From: an uncultured Hyphomicrobium sp.
GTDB lineage: Bacteria; Pseudomonadota; Alphaproteobacteria; Rhizobiales; Hyphomicrobiaceae
Length of the DNA: 64,000 bases
Direction: 5' to 3'
Assembly (NCBI RefSeq): GCF_902826555.1
Contig: NZ_CADEFI010000009.1
Location: 30,146-94,145 of the forward strand
Shown: positions 31,981 to 45,198 of the stretch, in pieces
Layout: each line of letters opens with the position of its first letter
Numbering within the stretch: position 1 is the stretch's first letter
The notes under the pieces: generated by a model
The model's database searches: none
What the model saw: the letters and a program-made list of their open reading frames with translations, nothing else
Told to the model about the DNA's origin: nothing
Translations under genes and position numbers: made by a program

Positions 31981-34287
31981 ATGGGCAAACCTGAATTCGT
32001 CGGCAAGAAATCGAAGGCCGCAGGCGGCTGGGGTGCGCTCAAAAGCTGCGGCAAGAAGCTCCTCGCGAGCGGCGCACCACTGACAGGCGCCGCCGCCATG
32101 CTGAAGGCCAATCAACCCGACGGTTTCGACTGTCCGGGCTGCGCCTGGGGCGATCCCGAGCACGGCTCCTCGTTCGAGTTCTGCGAGAACGGCGTCAAGG
32201 CCGTCGCCTGGGAAGCGACCGACAAGCGTGTCCGCCCCGACTTCTTCAACAGTCACACCGTCACCGAGCTGCGCCGCTGGACCGATTACGAGCTCGAGCG
32301 CGAAGGCCGCTTGACGCATCCCATGCGCTACGACGCTACGAGTGACACTTATCTTGAGACCACGTGGGACGCGGCCTTTACCGAGATCGGCGCCGTCCTG
32401 AATAGCCTCGACAGTCCCGATCGCGCCGAGTTCTACACCTCCGGCCGCGCCTCGAACGAGGCCGCCTACGTCTACCAGCTTTTCGTGCGGCTCTACGGCA
32501 CGAACAACTTCCCCGACTGCTCCAACATGTGCCACGAGGCGAGCGGCGTCGCGCTGGAGCAGGCCATCGGCATCGGCAAGGGCACCGTCGTTCTCGAAGA
32601 CTTCGAGAAGGCCGACGCCATCTTCGTCATCGGCCAGAACCCGGGCACCAATCATCCTCGCATGTTGGGTGACCTGCGGCGCGCCGCGCTCCGTGGCGCC
32701 AAGGTCGCTGTCTTCAATCCCGTGCGTGAGAAGGGCCTCGAGCGCTTCGCCGATCCGCAGGACAAGATCGAAATGCTGACCGGCGGCTCGAAGCCGATCG
32801 CCAGCGAGTATTATCAGGTGCACCTCGGCGGAGACATGGCCGCCGTACGCGGCATGGCGAAAGCCGTGTTCGCGCTCGACGAAGCCGCACGTGCCGCCGG
32901 CAATCCCTCGCTCCTCGACCACGGCTTCCTGGAGCAGCACACCTCGGGCCTGGAGCATTATCGCGCTGCCGTCGAAGCCACGAGCTGGGACGACATCGAA
33001 AGCCAGTCCGGCCTGTCGCGCGCCGAGCTCGAGCACCTGGCCGGGATCTACGTTTCGTCGGAGCGCACGATCTGCACCTGGGCCATGGGCGTCACGCAGC
33101 ATCGCCATTCCGTCGCCACCATCCGCGAGATCGCCAACTTCATGTTCCTACGCGGCAACGTCGGCCGTCCCGGCACCGGCCTCTGCCCCGTGCGTGGCCA
33201 TTCGAACGTGCAGGGCGATCGCACGGTCGGCATCAACGAGAAGCCATCCCGCGCCTTCCTCGATTCTCTCGAGAAGGAGTTCGGCGTCTCGATGCCGCGC
33301 CGCGCCGGCCACAACGTCATCGGCGCCATCGGCGCCATGCTTGATGGCTCAGCCCAGGCCTTCATCGGCCTCGGCGGCAACTTCGCGCGCGCCACCCCGG
33401 ACAGCGCGCTCATCGCCAAGGCCCTCCGCAGCCAGAAGCTGACCGTCAACATCGCCACCAAGCTCAACCACTCGCATCTGTTGCCTGGCGAGGTGAGCTA
33501 CATCCTGCCCTGCCTCGGCCGCACCGAGATCGATCGCAACGCCAAAGGCGTGGCCCAGATCGTCACCGTCGAGGATTCGATGAGCATGGTGCACGGCTCC
33601 GGAGGCATCAATCGCCCGGCCTCCCCGCAGCTGCGCTCCGAGATCGCCATCATCGCCGGCATCGCTGCGGCAACTGTCGGCTCGGATGTCGTCGACTGGG
33701 CGGCGCTATCGCAGAACTACGACCTGGTCCGCGACCTCATCGCCCGCACGATCCCAGGATTCCATGGCTACAACGAGCGCGTCCGCAAGCCGCGCGGCTT
33801 CCGCCTCTACAATGCCGTCGAGCACCGCGTGTGGCACACGCGCACGCGCAAGGCCACCTTCTCCTCCGCGCACCTTCCCCGCGAGACAGAGCACCAGCAG
33901 GCTTTGGGCGAGCACGGCCTGTTCGTGCTGCAGACCTTCCGCTCCCACGACCAGTATAATACGACGGTGTACGGCCTCGATGACCGCTATCGCGGCGTCT
34001 ATGGCGAGCGGCGCATTGTGTTCGTCAATCCCGACGACCTCGCCGAGATCGGCGCCGAATCCGGCGACCGCATCGATATCGTCGGACACCATGAGGACGG
34101 CGTCGAGCGCATTGCCGAAAGCTTCCGCGTCGTCTCCTATGACCTCCCGCGCGGGTCTGTCGCCGGCTACTATCCGGAGCTGAATGTCCTTGTGCCGCTC
34201 GCGAGCGCAGGCATCGAGAGCGACACGCCGACCTCGAAATCGGTTCTTGTCACATTTCGGCTTGCAGAACAGCGCAAGGCAGCATGA
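31981..34287 (+). CDS. FdhF/YdeP family molybdopterin oxidoreductase
   Basis: The product has 768 residues. It belongs to the YdeP group of bis-MGD enzymes: CPGCAWGDPEHGSSFEFCENG near residue 51 has Cys residues for an Fe-S cluster, then FYTSGRASNEAAYVYQLFVRLYGTNNFPDCSNMC, GQNPGTNHPRML, and the C-terminal MGD-binding part (QTFRSHDQYNTTVYGLDDRYRGV). Formate dehydrogenase activity is not established for the family; E. coli YdeP has been linked to acid resistance. No selenocysteine or partner Fe-S subunit is seen. The stop overlaps the next gene. Confidence 0.92.
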   Translation: MGKPEFVGKKSKAAGGWGALKSCGKKLLASGAPLTGAAAMLKANQPDGFDCPGCAWGDPEHGSSFEFCENGVKAVAWEATDKRVRPDFFNSHTVTELRRWTDYELEREGRLTHPMRYDATSDTYLETTWDAAFTEIGAVLNSLDSPDRAEFYTSGRASNEAAYVYQLFVRLYGTNNFPDCSNMCHEASGVALEQAIGIGKGTVVLEDFEKADAIFVIGQNPGTNHPRMLGDLRRAALRGAKVAVFNPVREKGLERFADPQDKIEMLTGGSKPIASEYYQVHLGGDMAAVRGMAKAVFALDEAARAAGNPSLLDHGFLEQHTSGLEHYRAAVEATSWDDIESQSGLSRAELEHLAGIYVSSERTICTWAMGVTQHRHSVATIREIANFMFLRGNVGRPGTGLCPVRGHSNVQGDRTVGINEKPSRAFLDSLEKEFGVSMPRRAGHNVIGAIGAMLDGSAQAFIGLGGNFARATPDSALIAKALRSQKLTVNIATKLNHSHLLPGEVSYILPCLGRTEIDRNAKGVAQIVTVEDSMSMVHGSGGINRPASPQLRSEIAIIAGIAAATVGSDVVDWAALSQNYDLVRDLIARTIPGFHGYNERVRKPRGFRLYNAVEHRVWHTRTRKATFSSAHLPRETEHQQALGEHGLFVLQTFRSHDQYNTTVYGLDDRYRGVYGERRIVFVNPDDLAEIGAESGDRIDIVGHHEDGVERIAESFRVVSYDLPRGSVAGYYPELNVLVPLASAGIESDTPTSKSVLVTFRLAEQRKAA

Positions 34288-34612: not shown

Positions 34613-36415
34613 CTAAGTGGCTCGCGCGAGCCACGCCCGCCAGCCGCCATACGACGTGATCTCCGTCGCCCCCTCGAGCGCGTAAGGCTCGCAAAGAAAA
34701 CCCTTCACCCGGCTTCCATCGGCGAGTTCGAGCGTGCCGATCCCGAGCGGCGGCGGAATGAGCGCGACGAACGATCCGAATCCCGCCTCGTCCATCTCCC
34801 AGATCTCGACTTCGATGCCACCCGCACCTTTGCGGTCGAACACCAGGCCCGGCTTGGCCGGAACCGTACCGGCGAGCGCATAGAAGCTGTAGCCCGGCGC
34901 CGTGCGCGTCGTGCGGACGAGCCGCGCTGCCCGCTCCTGAAGCTGCCCGTTGAGCGCCTGCCCCGTGAGGTGCGCCCCGACAACGGCCACCGCCACGCGT
35001 CCGGTCGCGCCCGCCGGCTCAACCGGCTGAGTGCCGTCGAGGCGCGCCTCGGTAGCACCGAGCTTGAGGTCGGACAATGAACGATGCAGCGCATCGCCGA
35101 CGGCCGCGATCCGCCCATCCGCGAACGCGCGCCCGACGATCGTGACGCCGAACGGCAAGCCGTTGGAGCGGAATCCGACAGGCACGGCAAGCGCCGAGAG
35201 ATCCATCAGATTGACGAAGTTGGTGTACGTGCCGAGGTTGGAATTGAGTTGGATCGGATCCGCAAGCATCTCCTCGATCGTGTACGTTGTCCCCGTCGTC
35301 GGCAGCAGCATCGCATCCATCTTGAGCCACTCGGCCTCGGCCGCCCGTGAAAGCTCGGCGAGCCTGTAGAACCCTTCGAACGCGCCCACCGCCGTCAGTC
35401 CTGCCGCGCTACGGATGATCTCGCCCACCACCCTATGCAGCGCCTCGGGCTTCTGTTCCGCAAACGTGCGGATGGCCGCCAGCCGCTCCGCAACCCACGG
35501 ACCCTGATAGAGCAGGCGAGCCGCATCCTGGAACGGCGCGAAATCGATCTCGACGATCGTCGCCCCACCCTGCGCCAGCCGCTCGACGGCGAGGTGAAAC
35601 AGCCGCTCGGCCTCGCTGTCCCCGAAAAACGACAGCGCCGTCGTTGCCGGCACGCCGATGCGAAGCCCCACCGGAGCCGCTTCGACTGCGAACGGCCGCG
35701 CCGGCGCGCGGGAATAGGCGTCCTCGGCGTCGTACGCAGCCGAGCTGGCCATGACCCGCGCCGCATCTGCGACCGTCAGCGCAAAAATCGACACCGTATC
35801 CTGCGTCCGGCACGCAGGCACGACGCCGCGCGCGCTGAGAAAGCCCTTGGTCGGCTTCAGCCCCACGATGTTGTTGAACGCCGCCGGCACGCGCCCGGAG
35901 CCCGCGGTGTCGGTGCCGAGCGCGAACGAGACCAGCCCTCCCGCGACGGCGACCGCCGATCCCGAGCTAGATCCCCCGGAGATATACGCCGGATCGAACA
36001 CGCTCGCCGGAATACCGTAAGGCGACCGCGTGCCGTTGAGCCCCGTCGCGAACTGATCGAGGTTGGTCTTGCCGATGACGATCGCACCCGCCGCCTCGAG
36101 CCGCGCCACGACCGACGCGCTTCGCTGCGGTACATACGCGAAATCCGGACACGCACATGTCGTCGGCACGCCGGCGACGTCGATATTGTCCTTCACCGCA
36201 AACGGGATTCCGTGCAGCGGTCCCTTCGGCGCGCCGGCGGCCTTTGCAAACGCCTGCTCGCGCGGCACGAGCGAAATCCAGACCGGACGCTCACCCGCCG
36301 CTTCGATACGCCGGTAGACCTCGGCCACAATATCAGCAGGCGTAAACCTGCCCGCGGCATAGCCAGCCTTCAGCCCATCGATGTCGAGCGACTGCGACGC
36401 CAGGAGCGACGTCAT
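34613..36415 (-). CDS. atzF: Allophanate hydrolase
   Basis: AtzF splits allophanate into ammonia and CO2. The N-terminal 440 residues are an amidase domain with the Ser-cisSer-Lys triad: KDNIDVAG has the Lys and [20 protein letters not shown] the Ser pair. The C-terminal 130 residues form the second domain typical of fused allophanate hydrolases ([17 protein letters not shown]). Length (600 aa) is normal. The start overlaps the carboxylase stop (ATGA). It is the last step of the guanidine operon. Confidence 0.95.
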
Positions 36416-39400
36416 TGCGCCGCCTCCGCGCCCTCGTCCACGATCACGACCAGAGTCTGACCGAGAGCCACAGGCCGCCCCTCCGCGCAGCGAACCTCGC
36501 TCACGATGCCACCCGAGGGGGCATGCACGCTCATCTCCATCTTCATGGACTCGACGACCACCAGAAGATCACCTTCTTTGACCCGAGCGCCCTTGCTGAT
36601 CTCGACCTTCCACACCGCGCCGGGAACCGGGCTTGCGACCGCGATGGCATTGTCGGCCAGCGCATCTTCGCCACCGTCGTCCAACGGCGCGTCACTCACG
36701 ACTGCCCCGGTTTGATCGCTCGCTTGCCAGCGCGACCGCTCCTCTTCGAAGGCGTTTTGCTTGTGCGCCTTGAAAGCGGCAATCTCCTCCGCATTGTCCG
36801 CCAGGAATTTTCGGTAGTCGGAGAGCCTGAACGTCGCCGGCTCGATCCTGAGCCCGACCTTGCCTTGCAGAAAGCCGTCGCGAAACGTTGCAAGTTCCTC
36901 GGCCGAGACGGGGTAGAAGCGGATCTGATCGAAGAAGCGCAACAGCCACGGCTTGTCGGCATCGAACTCCGGCGTGATCCGATACGTGTTCCACACTTGC
37001 ACCGTGCGCCCGATGAACTGATAGCCGCCCGGCCCTTCCATGCCGTAGATGCAGAGGTAGGCGCCTCCGATGCCGACCGCATTTTCCGGCGTCCAGGTCC
37101 GCGCCGGATTATACTTCGTCGTCACCAGCCGGTGACGCGGATCGATCGGCGTCGCCACCGGCGCGCCGAGATAGACGTCACCGAGCCCCAGCACCAGATA
37201 GCTCGCGCCGAACGCGATACGCTTCACATCCTCGATGCTGTCGAGCCCGTTGATGCGTCGGATGAACTCGATGTTCGACGGGCACCACGGCGCATCTGAA
37301 CGCACGGACTGCATGTACTTCGCGATCGCGAGCTGTGTCGCCGCGTCGTCCCAGGAGAGCGGCATGTGCACGATGCGGCTCGGCACCTCGATGTCGCCGA
37401 CATCTCCCATCGCATCCTCGATGCGGAACAGCTCGCCCAGGAGCGTCGTCAGCGGCAGCGCGCGGCTGTCATAGTGTACCTGCAGCGAGCGGATGCCGGG
37501 CGTGAGATCGATGATGCCGGAAATGCCCTGCCGCTCCAGCTCGGTCATCAGCACGTGCACACGGAAGCGCAGCTCGAAGTCGAGCACGATCGGCCCGTAT
37601 TCGACCAGCAGATACTTGTCGCCTGCGCGCCGGTAGACCACGCGCGGCAACGATCCCCGCTGCGGCCGCGTGCCGACGATGCAGTCGTCGGCACCCAAAC
37701 GTTTGACGTCGACCAGAGGCGCCGTCGCGACCGGCGCTAGAGACGCCACCTCCTGGTCCTGCACCAGCTCGCGCGCCCGCGCCTCGAGCGGCGAGAGCTG
37801 CTGGAACTGCACCTTGTCGCCGGGCCGCAGCTGCCCAAGCTTCCACAGCTCGGCCTGCACGATCGTTACCGGACACACGAAGCCGCCGAGCGATGGACCA
37901 TCCGGACCGAGGATGACCGGCATGTCCCCGGTGAAGTCGACCGCGCCGATGGCATAGGCGTTGTCGTGGATATTGCTCGGATGCAGACCTGCCTCCCCGC
38001 CATCGGCACGCGCCCACGTCGGCTTGGGTCCGATGAGACGCACGCCCGTGCGGTTCGAGTTGTAGTGAACTTCCCACTGCGCCGCGAAAAATGTCGCGAT
38101 GTCATCCTCGGTGAAGAAATCCGGCGCCCCGTGCGGCCCGTAGAGAACCCCGACGTCCCACGTGCGCGTCAATTCGGGTCTGAGCGCCTCCGCCAGCGGC
38201 TCGGCCGCGCTCGCAGCGCTGCCCGGATCCGGATCTGCGACGTGCAGCACGTCGCCCGTGAGCAAGGCGCGCCCGCCGTGCCCGCCAAACTTGCCGAGCG
38301 TGAACGTCGCCATGCTGTCGAGATAGGCCGGCACATCGAAACCGCCGCGCACGGCGAGGTAGGTTCGCGCACCGGCTCCCGTCACGCTACCGAGCTTCAA
38401 GACCTCGCCGGCCATCACGGCAACCGGCTGCCAGAACGGCACCGCGCGATCGCCGATCTTGGCCGCCATCTCGGCGCCCGCGAGACAAACGACGGCATCG
38501 CAATTGAACTGCAGCGTCGGTCCGGAAAGCGTGAGTTCGAGTGCGGGCGCCCCCTCCGGATTGCCGACAAGGCGATTGGCGAGGCGGAACGAAAGATGGT
38601 CCATCGGACCGGACGGCGGGACACCGACGGCCCAGTAGCCGGTGCGGCCCGGCCAATCCTGCACTGTCGTCTGCGTGCCGGGTGAAAGCACCTCGATGGT
38701 TTGCGCGAGATAGGGAAAAGTCGCCAGCGTACGCGTCAGCATCTGCCCGTCAGCCAGAACCTCGGACGCTGCGAGCTGGCGCAGGTAGTCGAGGTTGGTC
38801 TCGAGCCCACCGATCTCCGTCGCATCGAGTGCTTCGCGCAGCCTGGCCAGCGCCTCCGGCCGCGTCTCGGCCCGGACAATGATCTTCGCCAGCATCGGAT
38901 CGTAGAACGGCGACACCTCCGCCCCGCTCTCGACCCAGGTCTCGACGCGCGTATCCCTGGGCCACGCGACATGCGAAAGCAGGCCCGAGCTAGGCCGGAA
39001 GTCGCGTCCCGGATCCTCCGCATAGAGGCGCACCTGGATCGACGCACCTTTCGGCGCGACGCGCTCCTGGTCGAGCGGCAAGGTCTCGCCTGCGGCCTGC
39101 CGCACCATCCATTCGACGAGATCGAGCCCCGTCGCTTCTTCGGTCACCCCGTGCTCGACCTGGAGCCGCGTGTTGACCTCCAGGAAATAGAAGTCGTCGC
39201 TATCGCTGTCGTAGAGAAACTCCACCGTGCCGGCACTTTCGTAGGAGACGGACTTGCCGAGGTTGCGCGCCGTCTCCCAAAGCGCAGCGCGCGTCGTCGC
39301 GGAAAGCCCTGGTGCAGGCGTCTCCTCAATCACCTTCTGGTTGCGCCGCTGCGCCGAGCAGTCGCGCTCGCCGAGGGCGACAACACGGCCCTTTCCGTCG

Positions 39401-40041
39401 CCGAAGATCTGCACCTCGATGTGCCGCCCGCGCGCGACGTACTTTTCGAGGAACAAGCCGGGATCCTTGAAGTTGTTGCGCGCCAGTCGTCCGACGCGCT
39501 CGTAGAGCGGTTTGAGCTCCGCAGCCGACGAGACGAGTTGCAAGCCGATGCCGCCGCCGCCCGCCGTGCTCTTCAGCATCACCGGATAGCCGATGCGCGC
39601 CGCTTCCTTTTCCGCCTCGACGAGATCGCCGACCAATCCCGAGCCGGGCGCGAGAGGCACGCCGGCTGCGAGCGCCAGCTCGCGCGCGCGATGCTTGAGG
39701 CCGAACGCACGCATCTGATCCGGCTTGGGCCCGATGAAGACAATCCCCGCCTTTGCACAGGCCTCCGCAAAATCGGGGTTCTCGGACAGGAACCCGTATC
39801 CCGGGTGAATCGCTTCCGCGCCTGTCGCCCGTGCCGCGTCGAGGATCGCCTCGATCTTGAGGTAGCTCTGCGCCGCCGCAGCGGGACCGATCGCGACCGC
39901 CTCGGTCGCCTGCGCGACGTGCATCGAATGCCGGTCGGCTTCCGAGTAGACGGCGACGCTCGCAACACCCAGGCGATCAAGCGTGCGGATGATCCGGCAG
40001 GCGATGGCGCCGCGATTGGCAATAAGAACTTTCTTGAACAC
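36412..40041 (-). CDS. uca: Guanidine/urea carboxylase, biotin-dependent
   Basis: The product has 1,209 residues with a GTG start: biotin carboxylase domain (residues 1-445, [29 protein letters not shown]), then carboxyltransferase KipA-like and KipI-like domains (about 460-1100), and a biotinyl domain at the end with [14 protein letters not shown] (biotin Lys 1167). The family was named urea carboxylase, but members in guanidine-riboswitch operons with the two DUF1989 proteins are known to prefer guanidine. Given both riboswitches here, I infer guanidine carboxylase, making carboxyguanidine. Sequence alone does not prove substrate choice. Confidence 0.93.
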
Positions 40042-40044
40042 GGG

Positions 40045-40692
40045 TTATGCCCCCTCCGGCCAGATCAACACCTCGATGGGTGTGGGGTTGTAGGCATTGC
40101 AGGGATTGTTGAGCTGTGGACAGTTCGAGATGAGGACGATGACGTTCATCTCAGCGCGCATCTCCACGTACTTGCCCGGGCCCGAGACGCCATCCGCGAA
40201 CGTCAGCCCGCCGTCCGGCGTCACCGGCACGTTCATGAAGAAGTTGATGTTGTGCGCGATGTCCCGCTTGGTGAGCCCGTACTGCTCGTTCTCGACCACC
40301 GCCAGCAGATAGCTGTCGCGGCACGCGTGCATGCTCTTTTTCTCGAGCGCGTAGCGCACCGTGTTGCTTTCCGCCGCGCACGCCCCGCCCAACGTATCGT
40401 GCCGCCCCACCATGTCGGCGGTGATCGTCATCAGCGGCCGGCAGAGATCCGACAACAGCGGCGATCCCGGACCGAGATAGACGTTTCCTTGTTCGCGAAT
40501 GGTGTCGCATGCCGAGTACCTCTCATGAGGATCGTCCGCATTGAAGAACAGCGTATCGGCGGCCTGGTTGCCCTCCAGATCGACAATGCGCAGCGTCTCG
40601 CCGCGCTTCACCACATGCATCCAGTAGTTCCCGGCGAGCACCGTCTTGCGATAGATCGCGGCCGAGGGATCGAGCGCGCTTTCCTTGATCAT
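40045..40692 (-). CDS. DUF1989 protein UAAP2, carboxyguanidine deiminase subunit
   Basis: The product has 215 residues. It is the urea-amidolyase-associated protein 2 type of DUF1989: [47 protein letters not shown], and the [12 protein letters not shown] motif with Cys. Work on guanidine-degrading bacteria showed that UAAP1 and UAAP2 together form a carboxyguanidine deiminase (CgdAB), yielding allophanate. It ends 3 bp before the carboxylase start. GGGAG precedes the ATG at 40692. Confidence 0.92.
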
Positions 40693-40702
40693 GGCCACTC
40701 CC

Positions 40703-41428
40703 TCACGCGCAACCGCAGCCGGCGTGAAACAGCCGGTTGTTCTCGAACCCGCGCCCGTTCTCAGGCGCCGACAAGCGGCAGATATCGTCCGCCGACGCCG
40801 GCGCGCCGGCGAGAATCTCGAAGCGCACCGGCTTACGCGGATAGGCGGGGCTTGGATCGAGCGGATGCGGGCAGGTGTGCAGCAGCACCAGCGTATCCAT
40901 GTCGAAGCGCAGCTCGACCGTGGCGCCGGGTTTCGCCGAGCTCGCATCGAAGGTCATGCGGCCGGCTTCGTCCGTCGTGACTTTGCTGAACCAGTTGACG
41001 TTGGCCGCGAGATCGCGCCGCCCCATGCCATACTTCGCCGCCTCGACGAGAAAGCTGTCGCGGCCGTTCTGCTGCCAGTCGTTGCGATGCGTCTGATAGG
41101 AGGCTTCACCCCAACGTGCCGCCACCATCGCCTTCGTGCTTGCCCCGCAGACGGTGTCGTGCCAGCCCGCCGTATCGGCCACGACCGAGCAGAAGATGCG
41201 CCCCATATCCGAGTAGAGGCAGTGCCCCTGCGTGAGTTTGAACGTGTGCTGGCATTTGAGGGTATCGGGCGCATTATAGCGCTCGAGCAGATTCTGGGGA
41301 TTGTAGAACAGCATGCCGACATTGGCTCCGCCGTCCACGTCGACAAGACGCAAACGACGGTCGCGCCGCAACGTCATTGACCAGTGCTTCCCGCCCGGAA
41401 GAACATCGCTCGTGATCGTTTCCCTCAA
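40703..41428 (-). CDS. DUF1989 protein UAAP1, carboxyguanidine deiminase subunit
   Basis: The product has 241 residues of the UAAP1 type: [47 protein letters not shown], and the WHDTVCGAS motif. It is paralogous to the next gene and ends with a Cys pair (HAGCGCA). The likely start is TTG at 41428, backed by GAGGAG eight bases upstream; a TTG start may keep expression low. The gene follows the guanidine-II riboswitch and is the first catabolic gene of the operon. Confidence 0.92.
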
Positions 41429-41470
41429 AATCGCCGCTCCTCTCTGCGGGCGCAGTTCCCGCTGATCTGT

Positions 41471-41515
41471 CCGGGCCGTCCCGGGTGAGAAAGAAGCCGC
41501 GCGGGGCCGTCCCCG
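41471..41515 (-). ncRNA. Guanidine-II (mini-ykkC) riboswitch
   Basis: In the minus-strand transcript two hairpins each have an ACGG tetraloop: CGGGG-ACGG-CCCCG (41515-41502) and CCGGG-ACGG-CCCGG (41484-41471), with a 17-nt linker. Two short stems with ACGR loops are the complete consensus of the guanidine-II aptamer. It lies in the 103-bp gap before the first catabolic gene. A third hairpin (GCGGG...CCCGC, 41462-41446) lies between it and the ribosome binding site, which could be the expression platform. Confidence 0.85.
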
Positions 41516-41531
41516 GCGGAAAGCCGTCCCA

Positions 41532-42395
41532 TCAACCCGGTGCTTGACTGTCGTTGGCAGGCGCGAGCTTCAAATCGAGCTGCGCACCAGCACCCGCCGC
41601 ACCGTTCGGAAGAGCTGCTGCCACCTTCTTCGGCCACACATCGAAATCGCGCGTCACGCTTGCGCCCGCTTTCGACAGGGCCTCCGCCACCGAAACGTCG
41701 TCGAGCGTCGCGCCATAGCGCTCCAGCTCCTCCGGCCGGTTGCGGGGCCGCTCGAACGCGATCACGCGCGTGCCGAGCCGGAACGCCTCCGAGAGATCGT
41801 GCGTCACCATCACGACCGTGAGATCGTTCTCGTTCCAGATGCGCCGGATCAGCACATGGATGTCGGCGCGGATGCCCGGATCGAGCGCCCCGAACGGTTC
41901 GTCGAGCAGCAGGATCTTGGGCTTGCGATTGAGCGCCTGCGCCAGCGCGAGGCGCTGCTGCATGCCGCCGGAAAGCGCCGCCGGATACTTGTCTTCGTGT
42001 CCCTTGAGACCGACGGCATCGAGCAGCTTGCGCGCTTCGGCTTCGGCCTCCCGCCGCCGGAACCCGAACAGCTTGCCGAGCAGGGGCGACTCCTCGAATT
42101 CGCGGCCGATGATCACGTTCTGGAGCACGGTCAAGTGCGGAAACACCGAGTAACGCTGGAACACCACGCCGCGGTCGGCCCCGGGCTCCGCCTTGAGCGG
42201 CACGCCGCCGACGAGAATTTGCCCGCGCGTCGGCTTCTCCTCGCCGAGCAGCATGCGCAGAAACGTCGTCTTGCCGCAGCCGGAGGGCCCGACCAGAGCC
42301 ACGAACGAGCGCGGTGCGATCGAAAGCTCGATGCGTTCGAGCACGACATGGTCGCCGTACTCCTTCCACACCTTGTCGAAGACGATCGCCGTCAT
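41532..42395 (-). CDS. ABC transporter ATPase, guanidine operon
   Basis: The product has 287 residues of the nitrate/sulfonate/taurine type. Walker A GPSGCGKTTFLRML, signature LSGGMQQRLALAQAL, Walker B ILLLDEPFGALD and the H-loop VTHD are all intact. The 50-residue C-terminal extension is Ala-rich and unusual. It overlaps the permease stop (ATGA). With the neighbouring permease and receptor it likely imports guanidine; direct substrate evidence is lacking. Confidence 0.94.
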   Translation of the reverse strand: MTAIVFDKVWKEYGDHVVLERIELSIAPRSFVALVGPSGCGKTTFLRMLLGEEKPTRGQILVGGVPLKAEPGADRGVVFQRYSVFPHLTVLQNVIIGREFEESPLLGKLFGFRRREAEAEARKLLDAVGLKGHEDKYPAALSGGMQQRLALAQALNRKPKILLLDEPFGALDPGIRADIHVLIRRIWNENDLTVVMVTHDLSEAFRLGTRVIAFERPRNRPEELERYGATLDDVSVAEALSKAGASVTRDFDVWPKKVAAALPNGAAGAGAQLDLKLAPANDSQAPG

Positions 42396-43210
42396 GCCGC
42401 GCGCGCTCCTGCAAACCAGGGAAAGGCCTTTTGCTGCAAAAGACGCAGCGCCAGATCCATGAGGAAGGCGAGCAGCGTGATCCAGATCACGTACGGGATG
42501 ATCACATCCATCGCCAGATAGCGCCGCACGAGAAAGATCCGGTAGCCGAGCCCGGCGTCGGCGGCGATGGCCTCGGCTGCAATAAGGAAGAGCCACGCCG
42601 GACCCAGCTCGAGCCGCACGGCATCGATCAGGCGTGGCAGCATTTGCGGCAGCACGACGCGCGTGCCGATCTGCCACGTGGAAGCCCCGAGCGTCTGCGC
42701 CTTGATGATCTGCTCGCGCGGCAGGTCCTTCACACGCAACGCCACGTCGCGGACGAGCTTAAGCGCCGTGCCGATGACGATCAGCGCGATCTTCGCCGCA
42801 TCTCCCAGCCCCATGATGATGAACAGGATCGGCAGCAACGCCAGCGGCGGCACCATGGAAGCGACGGCAACCACCGGGCCGAACGTCGCCCCCACGAGCG
42901 GCAAGAGCCCGATCAGGATGCCGACCACGAGGGCGATCAAGGTTGAAACGGCGAGTGCCGTCAGCAGAAGCGACAGGCTCGACAGCGTGTCGTTCCACAT
43001 CAGGTAGATGCCGCTGCGCGGATCGGGCTGCAGCGCCATGTGCTTCACGGCTTCCGCCATGGCACCGAAGCCCGGTAGCAACTTGTCGTTGGGATTCTCG
43101 GCGAGACGCATCGCCGAACCCATCAGGTAGGCGACCAGCAGCGCCAAGAACGGTAAGACCGCAAGGGCAAAAGTCCAGGTTCGATCTGGCTTGATGTTGA
43201 TGAGGCGCAT
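42392..43210 (-). CDS. ABC transporter permease, guanidine operon
   Basis: The product has 272 residues and about six membrane helices. The cytoplasmic loop ASTWQIGTRVVLPQMLPRLIDAVRLELGPAW is the EAA-type motif of SsuC/TauC permeases. It sits 44 bp after the receptor gene and overlaps the ATPase gene by 4 bp. Confidence 0.93.
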   Translation of the reverse strand: MRLINIKPDRTWTFALAVLPFLALLVAYLMGSAMRLAENPNDKLLPGFGAMAEAVKHMALQPDPRSGIYLMWNDTLSSLSLLLTALAVSTLIALVVGILIGLLPLVGATFGPVVAVASMVPPLALLPILFIIMGLGDAAKIALIVIGTALKLVRDVALRVKDLPREQIIKAQTLGASTWQIGTRVVLPQMLPRLIDAVRLELGPAWLFLIAAEAIAADAGLGYRIFLVRRYLAMDVIIPYVIWITLLAFLMDLALRLLQQKAFPWFAGARAA

Positions 43211-43254
43211 CAGTCCCTCACGGCCTTCCCGGTAGCGTCAAAGTGACGGTAGGC

Positions 43255-44319
43255 TCAGAGCTTCCCGTCGGCCGCGGCCTGCATGTAGGTCGCATCGAAG
43301 CGCAGCTTCACGTTGCCCTTCTCCCCGAACACGCTCTTGTCGGGAAACTCGATGCCGATGGCACCCGCGGACTTGGCATCCTTGCCGAGAAGCGCCTTGT
43401 CGAACAGGAACGTCGAAACGAGCTCCGACTTGGCCTTGATGTCGGCTCCCGTCGTGAAGGCGATCGCATCCGCGGGCGTGGCGAACAGCTTGGTGGTCTT
43501 GAGCTGATCGTCGAAACCGGCAACATCCGTACCCGACGCCTTGGCCATGTGCTCCTTGGCAGCCTTGTCCTCGGCGAGCGCCTTCATCGTGTCGTACCAG
43601 ATGCCCGCCAGCGCCTTTCCGAACTTCGGATTGTCCTTCAGCACCTCGGTGTTGGCAGCCATCAGATCGATGATCTCGCCCGGGATCGACGAGCTGTCGT
43701 AGACAAGCTTGGCGTCCGGAGACTCGAGAATTGTGGAGACGATCGGCTTCCAGGTAGCGACCGCCGTAACGTCGGGCGTCGCGTAGGCAGAGGCCATGTC
43801 GGCGTCCGACGTGTTCACGACCTTCACGTCCTTCTCGGCGAGCTTGACGCTCTCGAGCGCGCGCGCCAGCAGATAGTGCGAGACCGAGAACTCGACCAGG
43901 TTTACCGTTTGGCCTTTGATATCCTCGAGCTTGTCCTTGCCTTTGAGAATGATGGCGTCGTTGCCGTTCGAATAGTCGCCGACGATGACGGCGGTCGTGT
44001 CGACGCCGCCCGCGGCCGGGATCGACAGCGCATCCATGTTGGTCAAGGTCACCGCATCGAACGCGCCGGCCGTGTATTGATTGATGCTCTCGACATAGTC
44101 GTTGAACTGCTTGACCTCGATTGTGATGCCGTACTTGTCGGCCCACTTCTTCACGATGCCCGTGTCGGTGGCATAGCCCCACGGCATCCACCCGACATAG
44201 ATCGACCAGGCGACCTTGAAGTCTTTCTTCTCGGCGGCATGCGCGGGCGAAAACGCGAGCGTGAGGCTCGCGGCCGCGGCAACGGCACCCGTGAGAAATC
44301 TGGAGACGGACCGGTTCAT
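43255..44319 (-). CDS. ABC transporter periplasmic receptor, guanidine operon
   Basis: The product has 354 residues. A signal peptide ends SPAHA. The mature protein belongs to the SsuA/TauA/NMT1-like receptors (FKVAWSIYVGWMPWGYATDTGIVKKWADKYGI, QFNDYVESINQYTAGAFDAVTLTNMDAL). Similar receptors are named urea-carboxylase-linked transporters. Position directly after a guanidine-I riboswitch makes guanidine the probable ligand. The ATG at 44319 is 240 nt after the predicted transcription start. Confidence 0.93.
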   Translation of the reverse strand: MNRSVSRFLTGAVAAAASLTLAFSPAHAAEKKDFKVAWSIYVGWMPWGYATDTGIVKKWADKYGITIEVKQFNDYVESINQYTAGAFDAVTLTNMDALSIPAAGGVDTTAVIVGDYSNGNDAIILKGKDKLEDIKGQTVNLVEFSVSHYLLARALESVKLAEKDVKVVNTSDADMASAYATPDVTAVATWKPIVSTILESPDAKLVYDSSSIPGEIIDLMAANTEVLKDNPKFGKALAGIWYDTMKALAEDKAAKEHMAKASGTDVAGFDDQLKTTKLFATPADAIAFTTGADIKAKSELVSTFLFDKALLGKDAKSAGAIGIEFPDKSVFGEKGNVKLRFDATYMQAAADGKL

Positions 44320-44435
44320 GAAAACACCCCTGTGCTGACCACAACATGAGTCATTCGCAAGGGGCTTCGAACGAACGGCGGGCGCACGACGCACACGAGG
44401 AGGCCTTCCGTTCGAGAGCCGAAGCTCCCTGCGGT

Positions 44436-44559
44436 ATAGGTCTCCCGGGCTTTTATCCCGCCGTGGCTTCGCTCAAACCGCAAGGCCTGAGCGAGAGGAC
44501 CTCTCTCGGACCAGCATCGCTGCATTCGCGCGGCGACCGGAACCCTAGAGGCATTATGC
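44436..44559 (-). ncRNA. Guanidine-I (ykkC) riboswitch
   Basis: The minus strand reads CTAGGGTTCCGG (44547-44536), CTGGTCCGAGAGAG further on, ACGGCGGGATAAAAGCCCGG and GGAGACC near 44440, in this order. These are the invariant blocks of the ykkC guanidine-I aptamer. It starts at the predicted sigma-54 start point and lies 120 nt before the transporter genes. A GGGAGC-TTCG-GCTCTC hairpin follows (44429-44414) without a T-run, so control may be translational or Rho-based. Confidence 0.93.
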
Positions 44560-44569
44560 AGAGATATGC

Positions 44570-44585
44570 TGCACGAGCCGTGCCA
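44570..44585 (-). promoter_or_regulatory. Sigma-54 (-24/-12) promoter
   Basis: The minus strand reads TGGCACGGCTCGTGCA. GG and GC are exactly ten bases apart, and the box matches TGGCACG-N4-TTGCA but for one T. Counting 12 bases from GC puts the start at G 44559, the first base of the riboswitch. This suggests NtrC-type nitrogen control. Confidence 0.75.
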
Positions 44586-44733
44586 GTCGAGAAACGCTTT
44601 GAAACAAGGGAATTTTCGCGGGGCACCGAGCAGGCTTGCCTGCATTTTCACCCGGATGCCATGTTGACGGGCAGGCACCGGCCGGCGCGCGCAGGCCGTA
44701 AAGGGCACGCCGGGACACCGGCGCAAGGAGGTG

Positions 44734-45198
44734 TCAGCCGGTGTTTTTCAGCATGAACGCCACGCGCGTAAAATTGCGCATGAGATCCGCCCTGACGTCC
44801 TCCGCCAGCCCGACGCGATCGATGGCGATCTCCATGCAGCGCAGCCATGCATCGCGCGCCTCGGCGTCGATCTCCACGTGAGCGTGCATCTCGCGCACGT
44901 TGGAATGACCGAACTTCTCCACGTAGAGCTTCGGCCCGCCCAGGAAACCCGACAGGAAGTTGAATTGCTCGATGCGCGAGTGCGCAACGCCGTGACCGCG
45001 GAGATGAAGGATATGAAGACGCTCGCCCGCGGGCTCGAACTCGACGATGTCGTAAAACGTCTCGACGAGTTGCCGCAGGCCGCTCTCCCCGCCCACGCGC
45101 TCATAGAGCACAGGAGCCTTTGACGCCGAAGCCGAACCGGAGTTCGCAGCCCCGCCATGACATGCCGCACCTGCAGTGTCGGACCTGCGCGTCTCCAT
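44734..45198 (-). CDS. Group II truncated haemoglobin
   Basis: The product has 154 residues; the first 27 are Ser/Ala-rich and not part of the fold. The globin starts at LYERVGGESGLRQLVETFYDIV and contains FLSGFLGGPKLYVEKFGHSNVREMHAHVEI, with the proximal His in the EMHAHVEI block, and RDAWLRCMEIAI. These are group II features. Such globins bind O2 and NO and may detoxify NO. GAGGCGACC before ATG 45198 sets the start. An NsrR-type palindrome lies just upstream. Confidence 0.93.
   Translation of the reverse strand: METRRSDTAGAACHGGAANSGSASASKAPVLYERVGGESGLRQLVETFYDIVEFEPAGERLHILHLRGHGVAHSRIEQFNFLSGFLGGPKLYVEKFGHSNVREMHAHVEIDAEARDAWLRCMEIAIDRVGLAEDVRADLMRNFTRVAFMLKNTG

Follow-up and report, generated by a model that had tools for sequence, protein, structure and literature searches.

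A minus-strand guanidine operon with two riboswitch classes

We analysed a 64,000-nucleotide stretch of DNA from an uncultured Hyphomicrobium sp. (contig NZ_CADEFI010000009.1, positions 30,146 to 94,145; hereafter the window), which carries a putative guanidine operon with two riboswitches on its minus strand, where the features named below lie unless stated otherwise. The run consists of a guanidine-I (Gd-I, ykkC) aptamer, the genes for the substrate-binding protein (SBP), permease, and ATPase of an ATP-binding cassette (ABC) transporter, a guanidine-II (Gd-II, mini-ykkC) aptamer, cgdA, cgdB, the carboxylase gene gca, and the allophanate hydrolase gene atzF; the names cgdA, cgdB, and gca are those used in PMC12508155. 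The SBP of this putative guanidine importer (43255..44319) matched TIGR03427 with 535 bits, the permease (42392..43210) gave TauC/SsuC-like matches below the equivalog cut-offs, and the ATPase (41532..42395) was assigned from its open reading frame (ORF) and family matches. The two carboxyguanidine deiminase subunit genes, cgdA (UAAP1; 40703..41428, TTG start) and cgdB (UAAP2; 40045..40692), both scored above cut-off, with TIGR03425 (341 bits) and TIGR03424 (332 bits). The carboxylase gene gca (36412..40041) matched TIGR02712, a model named urea carboxylase, with 1872 bits, and atzF (34613..36415) matched TIGR02713 with 805 bits. The start codons of SBP, ATPase, and cgdB were picked inside longer ORFs. 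Asp702 of the carboxylase aligns with N1330 of the Kluyveromyces lactis urea amidolyase (5i8i), and passages in PMC11410670 and PMC12186494 give Asp as the guanidine-type residue at this specificity position.

The whole window was scanned with Rfam at the gathering thresholds (63 bits for RF00442, 32 bits for RF01068). Gd-I was found in the operon leader at 44440..44559 (RF00442, 70.8 bits, E = 1.4e-10) and Gd-II at 41471..41518 (RF01068, 37.6 bits, E = 6.4e-4), both over the curated cut-offs. An earlier note, made from the sequence alone, had placed a guanidine-I aptamer in the 5' leader and a guanidine-II aptamer, with hairpins at 41471-41515, between the transporter genes and the first catabolic gene; both placements hold, the score of the hairpins is significant, and the Rfam and ORF coordinates agree with that note to within a few bases. 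Gd-II comprises P1 (41515-41502), a linker (41501-41485), and P2 (41484-41471), and both of its hairpin loops read ACGG. At E ≤ 0.001 each aptamer is the single match reported for its model in the 3.72-Mb genome, with 150 of the 887 first-look candidates scored for RF01068. We also built our own Gd-II model from 31 sequences, the window's own among them. It scored the window element at 46.6 bits (E = 4.5e-9) and found no further match in the window up to E 1. Over the 31 loci the loop letters are invariant and both stems covary, with a covariation of 0.492 against 0.143 for shuffled alignments, and none of 500 shuffles reached 0.492. These results confirm that two guanidine aptamers of different class lie in series within one apparent operon, 2.9 kb and three ABC genes apart.

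The gene arrangement suggests that SBP through atzF are likely carried on one transcript, because the permease and ATPase genes overlap by 4 nucleotides (nt) with the chosen ATPase start, only 13 nt separate the ATPase stop from Gd-II, and a consensus scan of 41300-44800, a weak test, gave no minus-strand sigma-70-like site; its sole promoter-like site was on the opposite strand. Convergent with the operon, on the plus strand at 31981-34287, lies a gene for an FdhF/YdeP-family oxidoreductase (TIGR01701).

The position of Gd-II follows lineage

We surveyed related genomes for the same double arrangement in two samples, 297 genomes from the order to which the window belongs and 398 from its phylum. 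In the order sample, Gd-II was present in 75 genomes, Gd-I in 71, and the carboxylase in 27. The phylum sample held the carboxylase in 46 genomes with 53 matches, 7 of them at loci already in the order set. The 27 order loci and 46 new phylum loci gave 73 mapped carboxylase loci, and the 33 that had no operon-strand Gd-II by Rfam were searched again with our own model. Eleven of the 73 were of the urea type, with Asn at the specificity position, no cgdAB, and no riboswitch. The survey that the earlier note had called for thus found Gd-I and Gd-II together on the operon strand in 42 of the 62 loci with cgdAB; 12 had Gd-I only, 1 had Gd-II only, and 7 had neither. Of these dual loci, 39 were scored by Rfam at E ≤ 0.001, including G233 though it falls below the gathering cut-off, and three (G203, G095, and G524) by our own model, which confirmed the label of G203 that had first been set by hand. 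One of the seven loci with neither switch is a contig fragment. Weak matches before gca in another of the seven (G389, E = 0.059) and in G626 (E = 0.26) were left uncounted.

The place of Gd-II divides these loci. Within the window's class it lies before cgdA in all 21 operons counted, these being G095, G117, and 19 operons that combine both switches with transporter genes. Outside the class it lies between cgdB and gca in 22 of 22. On the carboxylase tree, from which one contig fragment (L084) was left off, the two layouts occupy different supported branches, although the labels require 5 and 6 changes owing to losses or gains in neighbouring loci.

The position split mostly holds in a second set of loci from named organisms, the best 80 of 587 in a CgdA alignment, in which matches of our own model were accepted at E < 0.01. 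Eight of 64 matches with E > 0.01 were dropped; several of these stand just before gca and are possibly real. Four of the named loci are judged to duplicate genomes of the first set (G001, G053, G203, and G460), and the window's closest named relatives in this set are Hyphomicrobium. The loci of Hyphomicrobium sp. LHD-15 (L141) and H. facile DSM 1565 (L144) share the window's layout. Gd-I and Gd-II both stand upstream of cgdA in 18 of the 23 alphaproteobacterial loci (the 18 include four Azospirillum leaders); another 4 have Gd-I only, and 1 has neither. The 51 gammaproteobacterial loci comprise 25 with Gd-I and Gd-II before gca, 7 with Gd-II before gca and no Gd-I in view, 14 with Gd-I only, 3 with neither, and 2 with Gd-II scored before cgdA. 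The first of these two, L208, is a true exception to the gammaproteobacterial position; in the second, L198, a distance of 1.9 kb separates Gd-II from cgdA. Gd-II precedes cgdA in three of the six other loci: one filed as Ignavibacteria and one as unclassified Pseudomonadota, which both have Gd-I there as well, and one from Desulfuromonadia. The other three lack Gd-II.

Some loci depart from the simple pair of switches. Six (L105, L122, L131, L134, L136, and L140) have three same-strand switches in series: two Gd-I, each followed by transporter genes, and a Gd-II that precedes gca. Oryzibacter oryziterrae (L160) also has three switches, since a second, divergent Gd-II (6691-6644, 53.6 bits) lies upstream of its Gd-I. 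Two loci, L065 (the G053 genome) and L147, have the urea-type Asn at carboxylase position 702 despite cgdAB and both riboswitches.

Gd-II accompanies transporter genes and often lies within the ATPase reading frame

The presence of Gd-II was related to the genes that follow the leader. Where ABC genes separate Gd-I from cgdA, 41 of 42 loci with Gd-I and cgdAB also carry Gd-II; of the 11 such loci that lack intervening ABC genes, 1 does. Locus L109, with unidentified genes in that interval, was left out of the comparison. The sole ABC-bearing operon scored as having no Gd-II is G626, the one with the weak match before gca.

Inspection of the ATPase gene end in the 19 dual operons of the class showed that its reading frame runs through the whole Gd-II in 11 (G023, G099, G130, G179, G187, G225, G278, G281, G293, G325, and G643), stops inside it in 2, and stops before it in 6, the window included. 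That the ATPase frame is open proves little alone: in 8 of the 11 the remaining two frames likewise have no stop across the aptamer. Better evidence comes from the common frame and from a 4-nt overlap of the ATPase stop and the cgdA start in 8 of the 11 loci (often ATGA or GTGA). The phase of the aptamer in the ATPase frame is identical in 10 of the 11; the different value in G293 comes from a shorter aptamer call, and this locus encodes the same GRDDP peptide. Were the aptamer translated as part of the 3' end of the ATPase gene, its structure would be remodelled by each ribosome that completes this gene. Among the named loci, L161 is tabulated with an ATPase stop distance of -415.

Predicted expression platforms

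The usual expression platform of Gd-I is an intrinsic terminator, which lies outside the aptamer definition. A simple scan for hairpins followed by U-runs found none adjoining the window Gd-I; its sole match overlaps the Shine-Dalgarno (SD) sequence of the SBP gene (44325..44332, read from the sequence), which is paired within a hairpin in the predicted leader fold. A stable hairpin and then a U-run follow shortly 3' of Gd-I in four relatives of the class (G023, G179, G187, and G281), and the same pair follows Gd-I in some loci outside the class.

At Gd-II, the predicted window fold contains P1, P2, an extra hairpin (41446..41462), and a long helix in which the P1-P2 linker pairs with the cgdA SD region (41434..41443). 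The linker-SD duplex was predicted at -21.3 kcal/mol, compared with -13.4 kcal/mol for shuffled linkers (p = 0.013, and 0.022 on repeat). The putative anti-SD in the linker that has been proposed for translational control by RF01068 is therefore predicted to be present in the window. By eye, linker-SD pairing appeared in the predicted folds of 9 of 12 Hyphomicrobium-group leaders (11 of Hyphomicrobium type, the window included, and Methyloceanibacter). Hairpins at the place of the extra hairpin occur in the folds of several relatives; the alignment of the Hyphomicrobium-group platforms with MAFFT was too poor for any claim of covariation in it. In the loci measured, Gd-II stands close to the start codon it precedes, 15-51 nt 5' of cgdA (20 loci, including G095, G117, and G203) or 12-45 nt 5' of gca (21 loci).

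A two-step model of guanidine control and its alternatives

On the basis of these results we propose, with good though not full confidence, that this is an operon for guanidine import and carboxylation with two serial sensors, Gd-I as the gate in the leader and Gd-II as a translation-ON switch for cgdA. The aptamers, the gene order, its recurrence, and the position of Gd-II are observed; a single transcript, ligand binding, and the switching steps are what the model would add to them. Leader Gd-I would gate expression of the transporter genes and probably that of the whole message. When guanidine is absent, the P1-P2 linker would pair with the cgdA SD; when it is present, the P1 and P2 loops would kiss, the linker would be stretched, and the ribosome site would be freed. 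Gd-II may in this way switch on translation of cgdA, and hence the catabolic half, which most likely is its role. The net effect would be an AND-like, two-step control by the same ligand, and the catabolic genes would regain direct control by guanidine where transporter genes part them from the leader. We favour this model because of the two aptamers, the pathway genes, Asp702, the linker-SD fold of the window, the close spacing of Gd-II, its association with ABC genes, and the published data for Vreelandella boliviensis described below. The linker-SD pairing of the window fits the proposal, set out in a passage of PMC9094411, that guanidine-induced loop kissing removes a linker anti-SD. A passage of PMC5486947 proposes a stem loop overlapping P2 and the ribosome site.

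Several results weigh against the two-step model. The association of Gd-II with ABC genes, strong in counts, is only suggestive in independent events: it reduces to six independent tree pairs contrasting in the ABC trait, in which Gd-II changed in the same direction in 4.9 on average and in the opposite direction in none (median sign-test p = 0.0625). Of 41 loci tested for linker-SD complementarity, only 3 had p ≤ 0.05, and none of these was among the 21 with Gd-II before gca. In a second set of further or repeated leaders this level was reached in 5 of 20, four of them among the 12 of the Hyphomicrobium group (G325 was left out of the first set and L155 of the second). Because so few loci pass, the detailed switch is not general, and we rejected an anti-SD rule for all loci and retain it only for the window together with some of its close relatives. 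The stability of the window Gd-II leader is not unusual (z = -0.40). Forcing P1 and P2 to form moved the unpaired fraction of the window SD from 0.10 to 0.11, and in such constrained folds the mean SD exposure went from 0.397 to 0.393 before cgdA and from 0.350 to 0.349 before gca. Constrained folding thus gives no support for SD release by the stems alone; release depends on loop kissing, which the folds did not include.

A different origin for the series is conceivable, though we consider it unlikely. A unit of Gd-I with transporter genes and a unit of Gd-II with catabolic genes could have become neighbours, leaving two transcripts and an inherited order. Separate units do exist: in G117, Gd-II precedes cgdAB-gca-atzF in a genome with no Gd-I match; in G285, the transporter and catabolic genes form two convergent units with a Gd-I each; and in Mycobacterium sp. 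KBS0706 (L158), Gd-I precedes the transporter genes downstream of a catabolic block with no switch in view. The tight junctions of the window, with its overlapping permease and ATPase genes, its 13-nt gap before Gd-II, and no minus-strand promoter-like site in the scan, argue against a mere juxtaposition, as does the location of Gd-II inside the ATPase frame in 11 of 19 relatives.

We give still less credence to the idea that the two sensors differ in specificity rather than timing, so that Gd-I responds to guanidine only and Gd-II, by also accepting methylguanidine, widens the inputs of the catabolic half. Passages of PMC12508155 lend it some colour, reporting no methylguanidine binding by V. 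boliviensis Gd-I over the tested range and no discrimination by its Gd-II. In the window, however, gca and atzF overlap and hence leave no room between them for methylguanidine hydroxylase and lyase genes, and, should transcription hinge on Gd-I, the second switch could not turn expression on by itself. That the internal Gd-II has decayed or lost its function is very improbable: its Rfam score is modest (37.6 against a 32-bit cut-off), but over 31 loci the stems covary and the loops are invariant, and 41 of 42 operons laid out in this way carry it, which speaks against decay.

Adjacent Gd-I and putative Gd-II in Azospirillum leaders

The two-step model concerns sensors that transporter genes hold apart; in some relatives they appear to stand side by side. 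Five Azospirillum leaders (L150, L151, L152, L155, and L221, the last from plasmid pAB510b of Azospirillum B510) carry Gd-I and then two perfect ACGR hairpins just 5' of cgdA. The hairpins have 6-7 pairs and are 32-33 nt apart in all five, and they lie 69-73 nt after Gd-I in the four leaders whose Gd-I end was fixed by Rfam. The leaders precede cgdAB-gca, with ABC genes downstream where in view. Our own model gave 27-33 bits in the four loci that were also searched with Rfam. Since its best placement skips the first ACGR hairpin in L155 and B510, the claim of Gd-II here rests mainly on the paired hairpins; in one leader, 1 of 2000 mononucleotide shuffles gave two hairpins with stems of at least 5 pairs. 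In these four loci Rfam called no Gd-II up to E 0.5, for which the long linker is the probable cause. As the five leaders are close kin, we count them as one origin. Another relative, G095 (L069, 9434-9098), has Gd-I and Gd-II in one cgdA leader, 182 nt apart; this Gd-II scored 25.8 Rfam bits, below the 32-bit cut-off, and E = 4.9e-5 with our own model.

We put at roughly even odds a variant particular to the class, in which Gd-II guards the junction of transporter and deiminase genes, often embedded in the ATPase gene, and true Gd-I/Gd-II tandems arise where the transporter lies elsewhere, as in Azospirillum and one relative of the order.

These loci offer a natural test of why one message should hold two sensor classes for one ligand. 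The place of the second sensor, before cgdA or gca, tracks lineage, and its presence tracks transporter genes that intervene between the leader and the catabolic genes. In the Azospirillum leaders the same two sensors appear next to each other, and the ATPase-embedded copies would be riboswitches that translating ribosomes have to unfold.

Comparison with known systems

The earlier note had regarded two guanidine sensors within one transcript as undescribed. This does not stand, because such operons have been published for V. boliviensis (PMC12508155) and for enterobacteria (PMC12186494). According to passages of PMC12508155, the guanidine operon of V. boliviensis has Gd-I at its start and Gd-II inside, "several other bacteria" are alike, and all operon proteins are highly raised on guanidine. 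The apparent dissociation constants given there are only about twofold apart, 44 μM for Gd-I, the lower, and 93 μM for Gd-II; their order is the one expected if, as the earlier note suggested, import could switch on first and the carboxylase later. The V. boliviensis operon and that of the window share a leader Gd-I, an internal Gd-II, an ABC importer, cgdAB, gca, and atzF. They differ in that V. boliviensis also has mgdH and mgdL, and in that its Gd-II lies between cgdB and gca. The window does not match this published layout, since its Gd-II stands directly 5' of the deiminase genes, before cgdA, and not directly 5' of the carboxylase gene. In the titles, abstract openings, and passages of the literature searched, we met no description of Gd-II before cgdA.

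The enterobacterial operons of Raoultella terrigena, Erwinia rhapontici, and Klebsiella michiganensis, as presented in passages of PMC12186494, have both switches, with Gd-II before gca. Like the window, they place the importer under Gd-I and later catabolic genes under Gd-II, but their deiminase genes belong to the Gd-I half, whereas those of the window belong to the Gd-II half.

Tandem riboswitches such as SAM-II/SAM-V, treated in passages of PMC9481103, likewise use aptamers of two classes to sense a single ligand within one message. The window is not an adjacent tandem of this kind, its aptamers being 2.9 kb and three ABC genes apart; we met the adjacent form only in relatives, in Azospirillum and G095. 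According to a passage of PMC9481103, a 2022 review, none of the four guanidine classes had been seen in a tandem arrangement. Compared with these systems, the pairing of the two switches is known. What may be new is where Gd-II sits in the window, its link to the transporter genes, and its occurrence in relatives inside the ATPase frame or beside Gd-I.

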